IMG/VR virus record: IMGVR_UViG_3300022602_000158
Coordinates: 1-47,445 of that record
Direction: 5' to 3' (one strand)
Length of the DNA stretch: 47,445 nucleotides
Source of the DNA: a virus
Below the pieces are notes generated by a model that saw nothing but the letters and a program-made list of their open reading frames with translations, was not told where the DNA came from and did no database searches. The translations under genes were made by a program, and so were the position numbers. This document shows positions 11,488 to 44,311 of this stretch, piece by piece. Position 1 is the first letter of the stretch; the number at the start of each line of letters is the position of its first letter.

Positions 11488-11516
11488 TTGACTTTTAACC
11501 GGTTATGTTGTATAAT
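11488..11516 (+). promoter_or_regulatory. Sigma70 promoter of the tmRNA gene (TTGACT-17-TATAAT)
   Basis: TTGACT (11488-11493) and an exact TATAAT (11511-11516) are 17 bases apart. The predicted +1 at 11523 is at the base of a 7-bp hairpin (CCTATTT/AAATAGG, 11522-11541) and upstream of the acceptor piece. The tmRNA therefore looks like an independent unit read by unmodified host RNA polymerase. Confidence 0.8.
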
Positions 11517-11541
11517 GATTTCCTATTTCGATTAAAATAGG

Positions 11542-11619
11542 TGGTGGGTCGGAAAAGAATTCGTAGAAGTTGTTTGAAAGTTGTTGTGGACGGGAGTTCG
11601 ATTCTCCCCACCTCCACCA
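11542..11619 (+). other. tmRNA acceptor piece (T arm and CCA end)
   Basis: T stem GGGAG/CTCCC (11592-11596 with 11604-11608) encloses the loop TTCGATT (11597-11603). The acceptor strand CACCTCC, discriminator A and encoded CCA follow (11609-11619). The upstream stretch GAAGTTGTTTGAAAG can form the 3' side of the long P2 stem with the coding piece (GTTGT with GCAAT). The start is approximate; the hairpin at 11522-11541 may belong to the precursor. Confidence 0.85.
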
Positions 11620-11629
11620 AAAGGATACT

Positions 11630-11782
11630 ATGAAATATAAAATGGTTGTTGATACAGGTTACAGAATTTATGTAAAAGAAAGAAGTAAAAGCAAAGAACA
11701 TTTAGTTGAAAAAGCTTTAGGTCTTTCAAAAAAACATCCTAAATGGAAAATTTCTGTAGCTGAAGAAAAAACAATCATATAG
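11630..11782 (+). CDS. 50-aa ORF inside the tmRNA intervening segment
   Basis: A 50-codon frame lies wholly between the CCA end and the GGGGGTG start of the permuted tmRNA. AAAGGA (11620-11625) directly after the CCA gives a fair ribosome site 4 bases before the ATG. The product is basic (VKERSKSKEHLVEKALGLSK) with a beta start and two predicted helices, and fills most of the 175-base spacer. No family recognised. If translated, it must be made from the precursor before processing or from the excised fragment. Confidence 0.55.
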   Translation: MKYKMVVDTGYRIYVKERSKSKEHLVEKALGLSKKHPKWKISVAEEKTII

Positions 11783-11794
11783 TATTCTTCTGAT

Positions 11795-11985
11795 GGGGGT
11801 GCTAGGTTTCGACATGGCAATCAGTATAACAATGGAGAATCGTCAAAGCTAAAGACGTTAGGATTGAGGACACTCGGCCGAAGAAGCAAATAAAATTAAC
11901 CGCAAACGATAATAAGTTCGCACTGGCAGCCTAAACACCTGTCGGAGTTTTTTAACGATTGTACTTGGCAACAGAAACAATCGTT
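11795..11985 (+). other. tmRNA coding piece with ANDNKFALAA tag
   Basis: Starts GGGGGTGCTAGGTTTCGACA, as expected for the acceptor 5' strand and D-like region. The resume codon GCA is at 11902-11904 and the tag codons run to 11931, then TAA at 11932-11934. A 9-bp hairpin AACGATTGT/ACAATCGTT (11954-11962 with 11977-11985) follows. Its loop CTTGG could pair with CCAAG further down to make a pseudoknot, so the RNA may extend to about 12040. Confidence 0.85.
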
Positions 11986-12060
11986 TCACAAACCCTATCA
12001 CAAAGTCAAAAGTACTTGGGTCCAAGGTCAGAACACCGACTGTAAACAAAAGGAGATATG

Positions 12061-37231: not shown

Positions 37232-40200
37232 ATGACAACGAATTTCAATGTAAGCCCTTATTTTGATGATTTTGATCCAACAAAGAATTTTCATCGTATT
37301 CTTTTTAAACCTGGTTTTGCTGTACAAGCTCGTGAATTAACTCAATCACAAACAATCCTTCAGAATCAAATCTCCAATTTTGCTTCTGCAATCTATTCTC
37401 AGAACACACCAATCTCTGGCGGTAAAGTAACAACCAATTTAAATTGTTATTATATTCGTTTGAACCCCACATATAATGGTATTTCTATTTCTGCTGGTAA
37501 CTTTTTAAATAAGACAATTACTGATGCAACTGGTACAATTCTTGCTAAGGTTATTGCTACTGCTGAAGGTGCCACAAACGGAGATCCACCCACATTAATC
37601 GTCACCTATATTTCTGGTGTACAATTTACTGACAATGCAATTATTACTCCAACCGATGGTTCAAACTTCCAAGCACAAGTATCACCATCAGTAACAGGAA
37701 CTCCATCTACTGGTTTTTCTTCTGTTGCTTCTATTTCTTCTGGTGTTTACTACATTGTCAATGGTTATTCACAATCATCTACTGCTAATGCTGATGGTAC
37801 ATATACTCAGTATTCTATCGGTAACTTTGTACAAGTAAATCCACAAACAATCATTCTCAGTAAGTATAGTAATACACCATCATATCGTATTGGTTTAGAA
37901 ATCAATGAGAACATTGTAACTTATTCTGGTGATTCTTCATTGTTGGATCCAGCGATTGGTGCTTCTAACTATCAAGCACCAGGTGCAGACCGTTATCAAA
38001 TCACTTTAACATTAACCACATTCCCATTGACTGTTGGTAATGACCAAGCATTTATTGAATTGGTTCGTATCGTTGGTGGTGCAATTGTAAAACAAAATGA
38101 CTCAACTGTATATTCTGCTATTGATGATTACTTTGCTAAGCGTGATTATGAAACCAATGGTGATTATGTCGTTCAAGATTTTAAATTGACACCATCAGCA
38201 AATACATCTAATACACAATCATACAATTTAAGTATTTCTAAAGGTATTGCTTATGTTCGTGGTTATCGTGTAGAGAATCAATCAACACAAACACTAAGCA
38301 ATCCTCGTGCAAGAACAACCAACACAGTAAATCCTAATTCTGTATTCATTGACTATGGTAATTACTTTGTTGTTGATACTGCCAATGGTGTGTTTGATGT
38401 AACAACACAACCTTCTGTTGATTTCCATTGTGTTCAAGCTGGAAACGTCAACTCAGCAAATGCAACAACATACGCTTCAACAGTAATTGGTACTGGTGTA
38501 ATTAGAGGTTGGCAGTATGTTTCTTCTAATGCTTCAAACACTGCTTCTTATGTGTTCAATGCTTATGTTTCGGATATTGTAATGAACACCTTTACAAGTG
38601 CTACTACATCTGCTACTACTAATACTATTACATTTAACGATCCAACAGATACATTCTCAACATCAGCAAATGCTTACTATGGTGCTTTGCTCACCATTAC
38701 TTCTGGTACAGATGCTGGTGATTCAAGAACTATTGTTTCTTACAATTCTTCCACAAAGACCGCTACAGTAAATCAACCATTTACTATTACACCAGATAGC
38801 ACAAGTAAATTTTTGTTGTCATTTACAACAGCAAACATTGATGCAATTGCACAAAAAGGTGCAAACTATGGTTTGACTGCTAATGCCAATATTAGTATTG
38901 TTGGTGGCGGTAAAACTGCCGCTACATTGGCATCACCAACAGTTCTTCAAGCTGGCGGAATGCCAGAGTTAGTTTTCCCTGTTGGTTATTCATATGTTGC
39001 TAACGTAGCAAACTCAACATACTATACTACACAAGTATTCCGTAATCAAGGTTTCAACAATACAAGTAAGACTTTAACAATTAACACAACTGCACCTTTA
39101 GCGTTCCAAGGTCCTTTGAATACTTCCATCTATGGTAATCAGTTCAAACAATTGTTTACATTGATTAACAATTCTACTGGTCAAATTCTCGATTTTACTT
39201 ATTCTGGTAATACTGCTAACATTACATCGGCAACTTCTGTAACATTTACTTCGCCTACTTATGGTGCTGTTTCAAACGTAACTGTTATTGCTGCCATGTA
39301 TGTTGCTGGTGGTGATGCTTCTACCAACATTGTTAAAACAAAAACATTAGTTACTGGTAATACAACTTATGGTAGTACATCATTAAGTTCTGTTGTTTCT
39401 AATACTTCTCTTGACCTTGTTAATGGCCAAGCGTATGTTCTGAATTCAGCCATTACTGCTAATGCACCATTCTCATTGTATGTTACCGATGTTAAGAGAA
39501 TTACTAAAATTATTGATACAGGTAGCACATCAGTAACCGCTTCTGGTCAATTGTTGTCCACATTTACCGACATTACAACATCATTTGCGTTAGATAATGG
39601 TCAACGAGATAGTCATTATGACTTTGCTCAGTTATCTTTATTGCCTGGTGTACCTGCACCTAAAGGTAACATTTTAGTTTGCTTCAACTACTATTCACAT
39701 GGTGGTGGCGATGGTTACTTTAGTGTCAATTCTTACACAAATGAAACCTATTCTCAGATTCCTTTCTATACTGCTAAAGATGGTAACACTTATGCACTAA
39801 GAGATTGTATTGATTGGAGACCTTCAAAGGCCAATGGTACAACAGCATACTTTGGTGGTTGGGAATATAAGAATCCAGGCACTTCACAAAACATTTTAGT
39901 TCCACAAAACAATACTAGTTACCAAAACCAGTATTCATATTATTTGGGAAGAAAAGATTTATTGGTTCTGACAAAAGATAGCCAGTTCAATATCATTCAA
40001 GGTACTCCATCAACTTCACCACAGTATCCATCACAACCAAATGGTTCATTGTTGTTGGCCAATTTGAATATGGATCCGTATACTGCTTATGTACCAGGTG
40101 AAAATCCTGATGGCATTACACCTAACTTGTCTATCAACAAAGTATTACACAAGCGTTGGGCTAAATCTGACATTACTGATTTACAAACACAAGTAAACAA

Positions 40201-43200
40201 TTTAGAATACTATACAACATTAAATGCTTTAGAACAACAAGCATCTGGTCTACAAGTATCTGATGTTAATGGTGTAGCACGACCAAACTTTGGTATTTTA
40301 GTTGATGACTTCAATTCATTTGCCGCAGCAGATACAAACAATCCAAACTATGCCGCTAATATTAATATTAGAAAAGGCCAAATGGGTCCTGTTACTTCTG
40401 TAACTAATTTCCAATTACAGAATCCTGTTGTATTGGCATCGTTAGGTAGTTTAGCGACTACTGCTGTCAACACATATGCTATTAATAATATCAATGGTAC
40501 TGCTACAAACATTTACACATTACCATACACAACTGCCAACTTAATTTCACAACCATTGGCAAGTAATACAATTAGTGTTAACCCATTCAGCGTAGTAACT
40601 TATCAAGGTTTTGCAACTCTGAATCCTCCAATGGACAATTGGGTTAATACAGTTGAAGTACCATCTATTCTTATTACTGACCCATCATTACAGTTTAATC
40701 AACAAGCTGGCGGTTTAAATTTAACCAATGGTGGTGACTTTGCTTCATTACCAGGAACAACATCTGTTGTTTCATCTTCACAGACTGGCGTAGGTGCTTT
40801 AAGTGGAACAAACTCTACTTCAACACCATTACAACAAGGGGGTACAGCATCAAGCAGTTCATATGTTGCCGTACCTACACAAACTTATGTAAGTCAGATT
40901 GTTGGTTTGAATAACGCACAAACTTCAACCGCAACAAGTCCTGCTTTAGTATCAGCAGATGGTTATGTAACAAACAATGCTGTATTGCCTAACATTCGCC
41001 CACAAGAGATTATCGTAAGAGCTGGCGGTATGTTGGTTAATACTCCTGTTTCTTGCTGGTTCGATGGTCAAAACGTAAATCAATACATGACAATGCCAAA
41101 CACCATTGAATTGACTGGTGTTACTGGAACATTTAACGTAGATGATATTATTGGTTTCTATGAGTCCAATATTTCTACATTCTTCCCTATTGCTCGTGTA
41201 ATTTCTGTATACAACTATCCAAATGGCACTTCTGTTCGTTTGTATGTTGCAACAATGATTCAAGTACCACAGACAGTTACAACAGCACAGTTACAAAATG
41301 CTTTCTTTAATATCAATGGAACATACCAAGGTTCTACTGCTGCTGGCACAGTAACATTCTCTGCCAATTCAATGCACTCAATCCATAACTCTGGTGTTGT
41401 TTCTGGTGTTGGTGGTAGTTTCACTTCTGCTTCAACAAGTACACCAACCAACATCTTTGCTTGTCAGACAGTAAGTAATTGGGCATCATTTACAAATACT
41501 TATGGTGTATGGGGCGACCAAAACAATGGTGGCTCTTATAGTGCTACATTCCCATTCACACCAGCAAGCACAGGAACATATACAGTAACTTATGCTGGTG
41601 CTGATACTGTTACAGGTTCAATTTCAGTTGGTGGTACAACAATTAGTACCGGAACATTAGTTGCTGAAAGTACAAAGAGTACAACAATTAGTTTAACATC
41701 AGGCGTTGCTGCAAACGTTTCTTGGTCATTGACCAACTCTGGTTTATACCAATACTATGCTGGTCCTGCCGTTGCTGTAACAATTACTGATCCAACAGGA
41801 AACATTGTTTGGAACTCCAGAACACCATCAGGATTAAGTTACGCTGCAATTGGTAGTGAATATTCAATGCCAAGCGGTGGCTCAATGTTTGTGGGTGCTA
41901 CACAAGTACAATTAGATGCTAATGCCAATTCATCATCTAATAGTTACTACTATGGTGCAGCAATTTCAATTAAGACCACATACACTTATAGCTACAACTA
42001 TGGTGCTGTTTACTATCCGCCTCCTCCACCATTCTCTGGTGATGGTGATAGCGCAAACTGGAACCGTTATACTACAGCAGTATCACAATACAATAGTCAA
42101 ATTTCGGCAGCTGTCAATGCGGCAAAAACATCTACGATTACATTGTCATCTACTGCTATCTACAATGCCAATATTACATCATACAATGCTGTAACTAGAA
42201 CTGTAACCTTAGATAAAGGTGTTAACCTTTCTTTTGGTACAAATAGTATTTACGGCAATATGAATTCACAATACAATATTACCGGTAATGTGGGCTCTGT
42301 AGCTGCTGCAATTCATTCAGGCAATACAATTCCACAACTGTCTACTGATGAACATGGTCAATTTGTAGCAATCTTCAACGTACCCGGTTCTGTATTCTAT
42401 ACAGGTCAACGAGTATTCCGTATTGATAATCGTGTAATTCCAACACAACCTTCGTCTGCTACAACATATGCTGAAGCAACATTCTATGCTACTGGTCTAC
42501 AAACAATTAACCAGAACTTGAACTATGCCGCTTCAGTTGATGCTTCTTCGACAACAATAACACAAACTAATAATCAAGGTTACAATATTGTTGCTCAGAC
42601 ACCAAACATTGATCCGTTGGCACAAACATTTATTATTAGTAAACAGAACTATCCAAATGGTGCTTTCTTAAACTCTGTTAATTTGTTCTTTGCTCCGTTT
42701 ACAAGTAATACTGTGCCTAGTTCACCTGTTACTGTATCGATTGTTGGTACATTGAATGGATATCCAAATGGTCAAACATTACCATACTCAACTGTAACAT
42801 TAAACGCAAATCAGATTAATACTTCTTTGGCACCAAATAGTGCTAATGCTTCGACATATACAACATTTACATTCCCAGCACCAGTATACATTCAACCTGG
42901 TGTATTGTATGCCTTTGTTGTACAATCTAGTTCATCTGCTTATAACTTGTATTATGGCGAACAAAACAAAGTTGCTATTGCTTCTTCTGCCAATACAACC
43001 AGTTCTGCAATTGCAACTAAGATTGGTCAAGCACCATATGTTGGCGCTCTATTTGAATCACAAAACTCCATTACATGGACTGCTGACCAAACTAAAGATT
43101 TGATGTTTACAATTAACCAATGTGTGTTTAATACTACAACTACACCACAGGTACAATTTGTAACACCATTCAATCTGCCATATAGAAAATTAGGTCGTCA

Positions 43201-44311
43201 AGATATTTTACAGAAGTTGAGTGCAAACTCAGTACCAAACGTATACAGTTTGTATTCACCAAGTCAAGCAATGGATGCTTTCAACGTATCAACTACTGAC
43301 TTTATTCCTTCTTCAACATCTATTAACTATGCTTATCAAACAACATTGTTGAATGGTAATGCTCAAACAGCTCTTACACCAGTAACACCTGGTCGTTTTG
43401 GTACACCAACACAAGATAACGTTTATTTGAATGATGGTAATGGTGAGCGTGTATTGTTGAAGAACTCAAATACATCATTCCAATTATTTGCTACATTATC
43501 TTCAAACGATCCAAATGTAAGTCCAGTTATTTGTGATGATGGTTTATCATTGTATAACATCATCTATCACGTTAATAATATGGGTATTGATGGTAACATT
43601 ATTACTGTGGCCAACACAGGCGCAAGTTATAATGCCAATACATTGTCTATTGTTATCACTTCAGGTATAACCAATTCTAATACAACAAACGATTTGGGTA
43701 CAACAGATTTACCTGTATTTGGTTATACACAAAATACAATTACTGGCGGTATCACATCCATCTACACAACTTATCCAGGTTCTGGTTATTTGGTAACACC
43801 AACTATTACTGTATACGATCCAACAAGTCGTACAACAGCTACAGCGAATGCTCAAATTGTTGTTGCTGGTGAAACATCTAAGAATGGTGGTAATGGATAT
43901 GCCAAGTACTTCACCAAGAAAGTAGTGATGCCAGCAGGTAATGATTCTGGTGACCTTCGTGTATACATTGATGCTTACAGACCACCTAATACTCAAATCT
44001 ATGTTTACTATAAGATTTTGAGTTCTGCCGATACACAAGTATTTGAGAATCAAAACTGGCAGTTAATGACCAATACATTGAACTATACAAACTATTCAAC
44101 AAATAGAAATAGTATTATTGAATATGAATATGCTCCTGGTATTAACAACTTGGCTAATAACAATATTTCTTATACAAGTACAAGTGGAATTAGTTACAAT
44201 AACTTCATTCAATTTGCTATCAAAGTTGTTATTACTACACCAGATAGAACTAATGTTCCATTCTTACAAGATATTCGTGCAGTAGCATTACCAGCAGGAA
44301 CAGGAATTTAA
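37232..44311 (+). CDS. Giant DUF4815-type baseplate/fibre protein, 2359 aa
   Basis: The N-terminus SPYFDDFDPTKNFHRILFKP and GFAVQARELTQSQTILQNQI is the hallmark of the DUF4815 virion proteins of T4-like phages, at the place of T4 gp9/gp10. It contains the DUF4815 region, a long mixed beta region, an Ig-like or carbohydrate-binding-like insert near residues 1400-1550 (FTPASTGTYTVTYAGADTVT), a proline run (YYPPPPPFSGDG), and near the end Gly/Tyr modules (YPGSGYLVTPTITV). The final 120 residues (VYIDAYRPPNTQIYVYYKIL) look globular. At 2359 residues it is the longest gene seen here and large for its type. Probably a baseplate protein that also forms a fibre. Confidence 0.75.
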   Translation: MTTNFNVSPYFDDFDPTKNFHRILFKPGFAVQARELTQSQTILQNQISNFASAIYSQNTPISGGKVTTNLNCYYIRLNPTYNGISISAGNFLNKTITDATGTILAKVIATAEGATNGDPPTLIVTYISGVQFTDNAIITPTDGSNFQAQVSPSVTGTPSTGFSSVASISSGVYYIVNGYSQSSTANADGTYTQYSIGNFVQVNPQTIILSKYSNTPSYRIGLEINENIVTYSGDSSLLDPAIGASNYQAPGADRYQITLTLTTFPLTVGNDQAFIELVRIVGGAIVKQNDSTVYSAIDDYFAKRDYETNGDYVVQDFKLTPSANTSNTQSYNLSISKGIAYVRGYRVENQSTQTLSNPRARTTNTVNPNSVFIDYGNYFVVDTANGVFDVTTQPSVDFHCVQAGNVNSANATTYASTVIGTGVIRGWQYVSSNASNTASYVFNAYVSDIVMNTFTSATTSATTNTITFNDPTDTFSTSANAYYGALLTITSGTDAGDSRTIVSYNSSTKTATVNQPFTITPDSTSKFLLSFTTANIDAIAQKGANYGLTANANISIVGGGKTAATLASPTVLQAGGMPELVFPVGYSYVANVANSTYYTTQVFRNQGFNNTSKTLTINTTAPLAFQGPLNTSIYGNQFKQLFTLINNSTGQILDFTYSGNTANITSATSVTFTSPTYGAVSNVTVIAAMYVAGGDASTNIVKTKTLVTGNTTYGSTSLSSVVSNTSLDLVNGQAYVLNSAITANAPFSLYVTDVKRITKIIDTGSTSVTASGQLLSTFTDITTSFALDNGQRDSHYDFAQLSLLPGVPAPKGNILVCFNYYSHGGGDGYFSVNSYTNETYSQIPFYTAKDGNTYALRDCIDWRPSKANGTTAYFGGWEYKNPGTSQNILVPQNNTSYQNQYSYYLGRKDLLVLTKDSQFNIIQGTPSTSPQYPSQPNGSLLLANLNMDPYTAYVPGENPDGITPNLSINKVLHKRWAKSDITDLQTQVNNLEYYTTLNALEQQASGLQVSDVNGVARPNFGILVDDFNSFAAADTNNPNYAANINIRKGQMGPVTSVTNFQLQNPVVLASLGSLATTAVNTYAINNINGTATNIYTLPYTTANLISQPLASNTISVNPFSVVTYQGFATLNPPMDNWVNTVEVPSILITDPSLQFNQQAGGLNLTNGGDFASLPGTTSVVSSSQTGVGALSGTNSTSTPLQQGGTASSSSYVAVPTQTYVSQIVGLNNAQTSTATSPALVSADGYVTNNAVLPNIRPQEIIVRAGGMLVNTPVSCWFDGQNVNQYMTMPNTIELTGVTGTFNVDDIIGFYESNISTFFPIARVISVYNYPNGTSVRLYVATMIQVPQTVTTAQLQNAFFNINGTYQGSTAAGTVTFSANSMHSIHNSGVVSGVGGSFTSASTSTPTNIFACQTVSNWASFTNTYGVWGDQNNGGSYSATFPFTPASTGTYTVTYAGADTVTGSISVGGTTISTGTLVAESTKSTTISLTSGVAANVSWSLTNSGLYQYYAGPAVAVTITDPTGNIVWNSRTPSGLSYAAIGSEYSMPSGGSMFVGATQVQLDANANSSSNSYYYGAAISIKTTYTYSYNYGAVYYPPPPPFSGDGDSANWNRYTTAVSQYNSQISAAVNAAKTSTITLSSTAIYNANITSYNAVTRTVTLDKGVNLSFGTNSIYGNMNSQYNITGNVGSVAAAIHSGNTIPQLSTDEHGQFVAIFNVPGSVFYTGQRVFRIDNRVIPTQPSSATTYAEATFYATGLQTINQNLNYAASVDASSTTITQTNNQGYNIVAQTPNIDPLAQTFIISKQNYPNGAFLNSVNLFFAPFTSNTVPSSPVTVSIVGTLNGYPNGQTLPYSTVTLNANQINTSLAPNSANASTYTTFTFPAPVYIQPGVLYAFVVQSSSSAYNLYYGEQNKVAIASSANTTSSAIATKIGQAPYVGALFESQNSITWTADQTKDLMFTINQCVFNTTTTPQVQFVTPFNLPYRKLGRQDILQKLSANSVPNVYSLYSPSQAMDAFNVSTTDFIPSSTSINYAYQTTLLNGNAQTALTPVTPGRFGTPTQDNVYLNDGNGERVLLKNSNTSFQLFATLSSNDPNVSPVICDDGLSLYNIIYHVNNMGIDGNIITVANTGASYNANTLSIVITSGITNSNTTNDLGTTDLPVFGYTQNTITGGITSIYTTYPGSGYLVTPTITVYDPTSRTTATANAQIVVAGETSKNGGNGYAKYFTKKVVMPAGNDSGDLRVYIDAYRPPNTQIYVYYKILSSADTQVFENQNWQLMTNTLNYTNYSTNRNSIIEYEYAPGINNLANNNISYTSTSGISYNNFIQFAIKVVITTPDRTNVPFLQDIRAVALPAGTGI

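Follow-up and report, generated by a model that had tools for sequence, protein, structure and literature searches.

Does the spacer between the two pieces of a circularly permuted transfer-messenger RNA (tmRNA) gene hold anything that a phage would keep? tmRNA is an almost universal bacterial RNA gene, and in the known two-piece forms the intervening sequence (IVS) between the acceptor piece and the coding piece is discarded and absent from the mature RNA. The question is raised by a tmRNA on the IMG/VR virus record IMGVR_UViG_3300022602_000158, of which positions 1-47,445 were studied (the window, that is, the whole stretch of DNA analysed). Here the 175-nt IVS contains a complete 50-codon open reading frame (ORF); this nested ORF is the unusual part of the locus and was overlooked in the original prediction made from this DNA. 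It is very likely that the locus is a dual gene, one transcript of which would yield a two-piece tmRNA together with a mini-mRNA; cleavage of the transcript and translation of the ORF are predicted. The phage two-piece tmRNA itself is known, but a protein gene nested in a tmRNA IVS is new as far as could be found; no report of IVS-encoded proteins was met in a search of open-access literature, so that a prior mention is possible.

The window bears a complete circularly permuted two-piece tmRNA at 11525-11990. The Rfam model tmRNA_permuted (RF04321) matches 11559-11934 over its full length (model positions 1-213; 94.9 bits, gathering score 47, E 3e-17) and, independently, ARAGORN calls a permuted tmRNA at 11527-12025 with the tag ANDNKFALAA. 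The original prediction had described a permuted gene with a CCA-ended T arm up to 11619, a GGGGGTG at 11795 pairing with CACCTCC at all seven acceptor positions and a complete tag frame with its stop codon, and each of these is borne out. The third of the seven acceptor pairs is a G-U (G3-U70), an alanine-identity element, and the C terminus of the tag, ALAA, is of the proteolysis type. In a cofold the two pieces are joined by the acceptor stem and by several further helices, and the 3' hairpin corresponds to the conserved 3' element of the alpha and beta permuted tmRNAs. A match to the Rfam permuted models had been proposed as a check; it was obtained across both pieces with tmRNA_permuted, but the gathering scores of alpha_tmRNA (RF01849) and beta_tmRNA (RF01850) were not attained by the window, only by several related loci (L002, L006, L010, L167, L176, L185 and L186; L numbers denote the loci compared). 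No SmpB gene was found in the 47-kb record, and host SmpB would therefore be used.

Relatives of the nested ORF were recovered from 11 IMG/VR loci by a scan with the window protein and from 28 by a scan with the alignment. The ORF lies between a CCA-ended T arm and a coding piece in L002-L009, L167, L176-L179, L183 and L185-L192, and in each group of ORF loci Rfam or ARAGORN backs a permuted tmRNA for representative members. The 175-nt length of the IVS is shared with L002, L004-L006, L109, L176 and L183; L109 was retrieved by its T arm alone, yet a diverged version of the ORF sits in its IVS with the same geometry. The positions of all features are collected in the table below.

Features of the permuted tmRNA locus and its nested reading frame in the window
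Feature	Position	Strand	Basis or remark
Sigma-70-like promoter TTGACT-N17-TATAAT	11488..11516	+	11/12 consensus match; predicted from consensus only, transcript start would be ~11524
Acceptor piece (3' half of tRNA-like domain)	11525..11619	+	RF04321, ARAGORN, two-piece cofold
T arm GGGAG-UUCGAUU-CUCCC	11592-11608	+	Perfect T stem
Acceptor 3' strand CACCTCC	11609-11615	+	Pairs with GGGGGTG 11795-11801
ACCA end	11616-11619	+	Sequence
IVS, 175 nt	11620..11794	+	Between CCA and 5' acceptor strand
Shine-Dalgarno-like AAAGGA, directly 3' of CCA	11620..11625	+	Sequence
IVS terminal helix, 5' strand	11621..11632	+	Pairs with 11778-11789; covers Shine-Dalgarno sequence and start codon
Nested ORF, 50 residues, MKYKMVVDTGYRIYVKERSKSKEHLVEKALGLSKKHPKWKISVAEEKTII then stop	11630..11782	+	Complete frame, ATG at 11630 and stop at 11780-11782 both inside IVS; relatives in 28 IMG/VR loci, dN/dS <1, AlphaFold2 model
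IVS terminal helix, 3' strand	11778..11789	+	Covers stop codon
Coding piece (5' acceptor strand 11795-11801, D-arm-like region, tag frame, 3' hairpin)	11795..11990	+	RF04321, ARAGORN, cofold
Tag frame GCA...TAA, ANDNKFALAA-stop	11902..11934	+	ARAGORN, cofold
3' hairpin CUUGGCAACAGAAA, loop ACTTGGCAACAGAAA	11954..11985	+	Cofold and likeness to alpha_tmRNA consensus CUGGCAACAGAA

No part of the locus is more conserved than the ORF: DNA identity between the window and eight relatives is 63-77% in the ORF, 44-62% in the tmRNA pieces and 32-51%, near background, in the flanking genes. The 13 distinct sequences align over 50 codons with no gap and share 19 invariant residues, and the differences cluster at third codon positions. 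The ratio of nonsynonymous to synonymous change (dN/dS) is below 1 in all estimable pairs and in many of them close to 0.1; it is 0.076 between L002 and L004 (dN 0.087, dS 1.16) and about 0.1 to 0.53 between the window and its relatives. With the substitutions placed at random, amino-acid changes were as few in no more than 2.2% of trials for pairs that include the window. Since the substitutions concentrate at third positions while the residues are kept, the ORF is, on this codon-level pattern, a protein gene under protein-level selection, its translation being predicted; that the locus is an ordinary phage tmRNA and nothing more is ruled out by the same conservation. It might be argued that the IVS is an ordinary non-coding spacer with a frame open by chance, as bacterial permuted tmRNAs have non-coding spacers, AT-rich DNA readily gives rise to short ORFs and some longer phage IVSs have no ORF. 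This is scarcely credible given the gap-free alignment, a confident predicted fold and the persistence of the ORF where the tmRNA is gone, and it is already contradicted by the low dN/dS.

That persistence is seen in three loci. In L010 and L184 the ORF lies directly 3' of CACCAAAAG- and CACCATAAACACATTGAGG-type remnants of a decayed acceptor piece that lack an intact T arm, and in L181 it is present in a 52.7-kb record with no tmRNA match; by sequence, then, the ORF survives alone, twice next to what is left of a lost tmRNA. A distant relative of the window protein (about 70 residues, with the shared LSKKHPKWKF) is found at L012:4891-5100, in an 18.9-kb phage record with no permuted tmRNA match. 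The opposite possibility, that the window tmRNA has itself decayed to a relic and left the ORF as the only functional part, could draw on its Rfam score (94.9 bits against 148.7 for L002) and on several non-standard pairs in the model alignment. It is very unlikely, as the acceptor and T stems are full, G3-U70, the CCA and the 3' hairpin are present, the tag ending in ALAA is intact, and the true relics L010 and L184 look quite different.

The two ends of the IVS pair with each other. In the window the helix has 12 bp with a pairing probability of about 1.0 at most positions of the folded precursor. The two ends of one phage IVS form a helix of 8.9 bp (beta-type) or 10.3 bp (alpha-type) on average, against 3.9 and 4.2 bp for ends taken from different sequences; because an IVS's own ends pair longer than mixed ends, the helix covaries across phage IVSs. 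The Shine-Dalgarno (SD) sequence lies inside the helix in most AAAGGA-type IVSs and just beyond it in L002 and in the alpha-type IVSs, so that a rule by which the SD is always sequestered was rejected. Bacterial IVS ends also tend to pair; the helix is for this reason probably a feature of processing to which the ORF has had to adapt. Alternatively, the IVS could be kept for RNA structure, such as a riboswitch or a processing signal, with the frame as a by-product. The terminal helix is indeed conserved and covarying in phage IVSs with or without ORFs, and a glutamine riboswitch is reported with the tmRNA of phage Melnitz in the accessible text of PMC9004378. In the Rfam scan of the whole window, however, nothing but tmRNA_permuted reached its gathering score, the helix is limited to the IVS ends, and it is the third codon positions that vary most while the residues are kept; an explanation by RNA structure is highly improbable.

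The predicted 50-residue product is basic and is modelled by AlphaFold2 as a beta-beta-alpha-beta protein with a mean pLDDT (predicted local distance difference test) of 92. Pfam and PHROGs gave no match to the window protein at E up to 10, and the best family match among the 13 members (PF18743, E 0.0043, in 2 of 13) is likely due to chance. A Foldseek search with the model gave no match at E 0.001; the nearest folds are small uncharacterised phage proteins, one annotated as DUF2188, with TM 0.74-0.84 for several BFVD proteins and VIA Z at most 5.9. The DUF2188-like proteins, Dmd and the antitoxin ATfaRel2 have a small fold arrangement like that of the window protein, without a significant E-value and with no shared function on this evidence; the likeness to ATfaRel2 (Z 4.7) and Dmd (Z 4.2) may mean a common arrangement only, as may any Z below 8. 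The matches to ATfaRel2, T7 Gp2 and Dmd, at Z 4-5, do not suffice for assigning the role of an antitoxin or polymerase inhibitor. That of a homing endonuclease was rejected, as no endonuclease domain was found by Pfam or PHROG and the protein has only 50 residues.

Is the window a single case? IMG/VR was searched for a CCA followed by an SD and an ATG, with no ORF required, and IVSs of at least 60 nt were kept. Among the 45 distinct SD-led IVSs so obtained, 42 have a frame that stays open until at most 16 nt before the IVS end, against an expectation of 4.75 from shuffles; two of the three exceptions (L135 and L142) belong to a group whose 22-residue membrane-like peptide starts from a TTG 4 nt downstream. 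Two T-arm pattern scans of IMG/VR gave in addition 123 distinct phage permuted tmRNAs unselected for ORFs. In these, SD-led ORFs contained in the IVS number 11 at 20 residues or more (2.7 expected) and five at 40 residues or more (0.08 in shuffles). The IVS genes have a common geometry: the start lies 9-20 nt after the CCA and the stop is very often the TGA of a conserved UUGAU just 5' of the coding piece.

The proteins encoded in these slots are of several unrelated families, many with a likely transmembrane helix. Reading by eye, from which the labels membrane-like and coiled-coil-like are taken, gave single-pass membrane-like peptides of 22-44 residues in L111, L116, L128, L144, L147, L157, L201, L205, L243, L367 and L409, and soluble or coiled-coil-like proteins of 47-66 residues in L208, L242, L267, L299 and L432. 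In the families with enough divergence dN is again below dS; in the L225/L201 pair (MEK group) synonymous change is not in excess. Pfam and PHROG searches with the other IVS proteins gave weak matches only, one of them of the L143 protein to phrog_16066 (E 3e-4, function not annotated). L409 and L440, with a 177-nt IVS, have two ORFs: an SD-led 23-residue frame from IVS +13 and, in another register, a 44-residue membrane-like frame ending at the conserved TGA.

Genes of the MSN, MKN and CxC...CxxC types are found outside an IVS too, standing alone, and in several loci they lie immediately upstream of a tmRNA. The CxC...CxxC protein, BFD-ferredoxin-like by motif only, is encoded inside the IVS in L198 and L215 and by a gene directly upstream of the tmRNA at L113:13074-12958 and L399:4994-4878. 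Similarly, the 41-residue membrane-like IVS protein of L147, L150 and L223 has relatives directly upstream of the tmRNA at L006:4788-4925 and L092:4233-4123, as if the gene were moving in and out of the IVS.

The spacers of bacterial permuted tmRNAs were examined as a control in 35 parsed loci, several of the longest included (7 further loci, unparsed, were left out). None of the 35 has an SD-led IVS ORF of more than 5 codons. Bacterial forms (RF04321; alpha, beta and cyanobacterial) are like the window in gene order, acceptor pairing, tag and UUGAU-type IVS end, but unlike it their IVSs are short, and non-coding in 35/35. The median bacterial IVS is 28.5 nt in the 28 top-scoring of the parsed loci, against 175 nt in the window, and permuted matches in 398 Pseudomonadota genomes have a median span of 216 nt (137 strong matches listed), against 376 nt. 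The exact SD pattern had 4 matches in 84,980 prokaryote species genomes, none of them a permuted tmRNA, and a bacterial origin of the IVS genes was rejected on this count; the matches are two tRNAs and two tag-less tmRNA-like genes. Tag-less genes of 82 nt, matching the whole RF00023 model with the mRNA part deleted, were observed at L164:5119-5200 and L165:3001-3082, close to tRNA genes; the two contigs, possibly of phage origin, come from a single Firmicutes metagenome-assembled genome. The tag-less tmRNA of mycobacteriophage DS6A, described in the accessible text of PMC11915505, is comparable.

A permuted tmRNA in a T4-like phage with its own consensus promoter had been taken to be not well described. 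This is not supported in view of published work and of the 123 IMG/VR sequences, which make the phage permuted tmRNA an already known kind of gene. The accessible text of PMC9004378 counts 53 two-piece tmRNA structures in public phage genomes, 50 of them from marine or aquatic samples, and reports one in phage Melnitz and in 17 of 47 Melnitz-cluster contigs; that of PMC11915505, the source of the RF04321 model, counts 79 unique bacteriophage tmRNAs. The tmRNAs of Melnitz and the pelagimyophages are like that of the window in being permuted, in belonging to aquatic contractile-tail phages and in having an adjoining promoter; Melnitz and HTVC008M were compared by description, and no IVS protein gene is described in the accessible part of PMC9004378. 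Likewise, the accessible part of PMC11915505 mentions a tRNA in one IVS and a repeat in another, and no IVS protein gene. It also records LAGLIDADG homing endonuclease genes in 36 of 883 intron-form tmRNA genes. These intron forms resemble the window in that a protein gene lies inside a segment removed from a tmRNA precursor; they differ in that the segment in the window is the processing spacer of a permuted gene and its protein is no endonuclease by any test.

How might such a locus work? By analogy with known two-piece tmRNAs, a single precursor starting from the promoter would carry the acceptor piece, the short protein gene and the coding piece. The consensus promoter of the original prediction stands as a sequence match, but promoter-like sites in the AT-rich stretch are barely in excess (8 against 6.5 in shuffles). 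Cleavage by RNase P at 11795, with 3' processing at the CCA (11619), would set free the two-piece tmRNA, which would work with host SmpB, and the 175-nt middle piece, waste in bacteria, would be a mini-mRNA for the 50-residue protein. As the helix prolonging the acceptor stem includes the SD and the start codon, the ORF is probably translated for the most part co-transcriptionally, from nascent or unfolded transcripts, and tmRNA maturation and ORF translation would probably compete. For the tmRNA itself a role in ribosome rescue and recycling, already proposed for phage tmRNA in the accessible text of PMC9004378, is a reasonable putative function.

It is a lesser possibility, adding to the nested-gene reading rather than replacing it, that protein and tmRNA are functionally coupled: the tmRNA may be under the control of the nested protein or of its translation, which might, for instance, keep the acceptor stem open and delay cleavage by RNase P or take part in ribosome rescue or tag-directed proteolysis. 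The position of the SD and start codon within the helix would fit such control, as would the fixed spacing of the ORF to both processing sites and the movement of tmRNA and ORF together between unrelated gene neighbourhoods. So would the frames that cross the RNase P site in the L140 family and in L134, L138, L143 and L146 (as also in the L198 family): cleavage there would yield a nonstop mRNA that the same tmRNA could tag. Tagging of ArfA by tmRNA in E. coli, as given in the accessible text of PMC10107115, is an analogue of such self-limiting frames. Stop-free IVS frames that run into the tmRNA across the predicted RNase P site were observed in L140, L151, L155, L158, L160 and L206, in L146, L152, L159 and L080, and further in L134, L138 and L143 and in L198 and L215. 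Against coupling, the slot holds proteins of very different kinds (a soluble beta-beta-alpha-beta protein, single-pass membrane peptides, a CxC...CxxC protein and possible coiled coils), some of them are stand-alone upstream of the tmRNA (L006, L092, L113, L399), and the ORF also occurs in records without any tmRNA match (L181, L184). The fuller proposal, in which the phage spacer is a regulated coding slot whose nested translation and tmRNA maturation control each other as a self-sensing ribosome-rescue module, is unlikely. Since unrelated proteins occupy the slot and MSN-, MKN- and CxC...CxxC-type genes also stand alone, a mere cargo slot in a compact genome is favoured over a coupled regulatory module: the phage IVS seems to have taken up several unrelated small genes, all in the same geometry.

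Several observations weigh against the dual-gene reading and should be set beside it. The SD and start codon are predicted to be paired in the precursor, which would lower translation, and the 12-bp helix is broken in some members (four contiguous pairs in L002, six in L167). The AAAGGA of the window is present in L002 as well, and L004, L109 and L167 have only AAAG, a weak SD. At 20 residues, SD-led ORFs exceed expectation only modestly when the beta-type T-arm sample is taken by itself (3 against 0.8). The window protein has no significant match in any protein family or fold search; tblastn of 50,697 cultured-phage records with it, the second clade and six other IVS proteins gave nothing significant, and all phage cases of IVS ORFs are metagenomic contigs.

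In the rest of the window, PHROG matches (baseplate wedge, tube cap, exonuclease, endolysin) mark a myovirus-type phage contig with a T4-type contractile-tail baseplate. Downstream of the baseplate genes, 37232-44311 is a single ORF of 2359 residues that probably encodes a structural protein such as a tail fibre.

The spacers cut from processed RNAs are regarded as waste; in this phage-specific version of the tmRNA gene the spacer holds conserved protein genes, recurrently and for unrelated proteins. These genes sit where annotation pipelines that mask RNA genes could miss them. They supply a group of small, uncharacterised proteins of phages, many of which have a probable transmembrane segment, and all are predicted to share a transcript with a ribosome-rescue RNA; it becomes directly testable whether ribosome rescue is coupled in phages to some other function.
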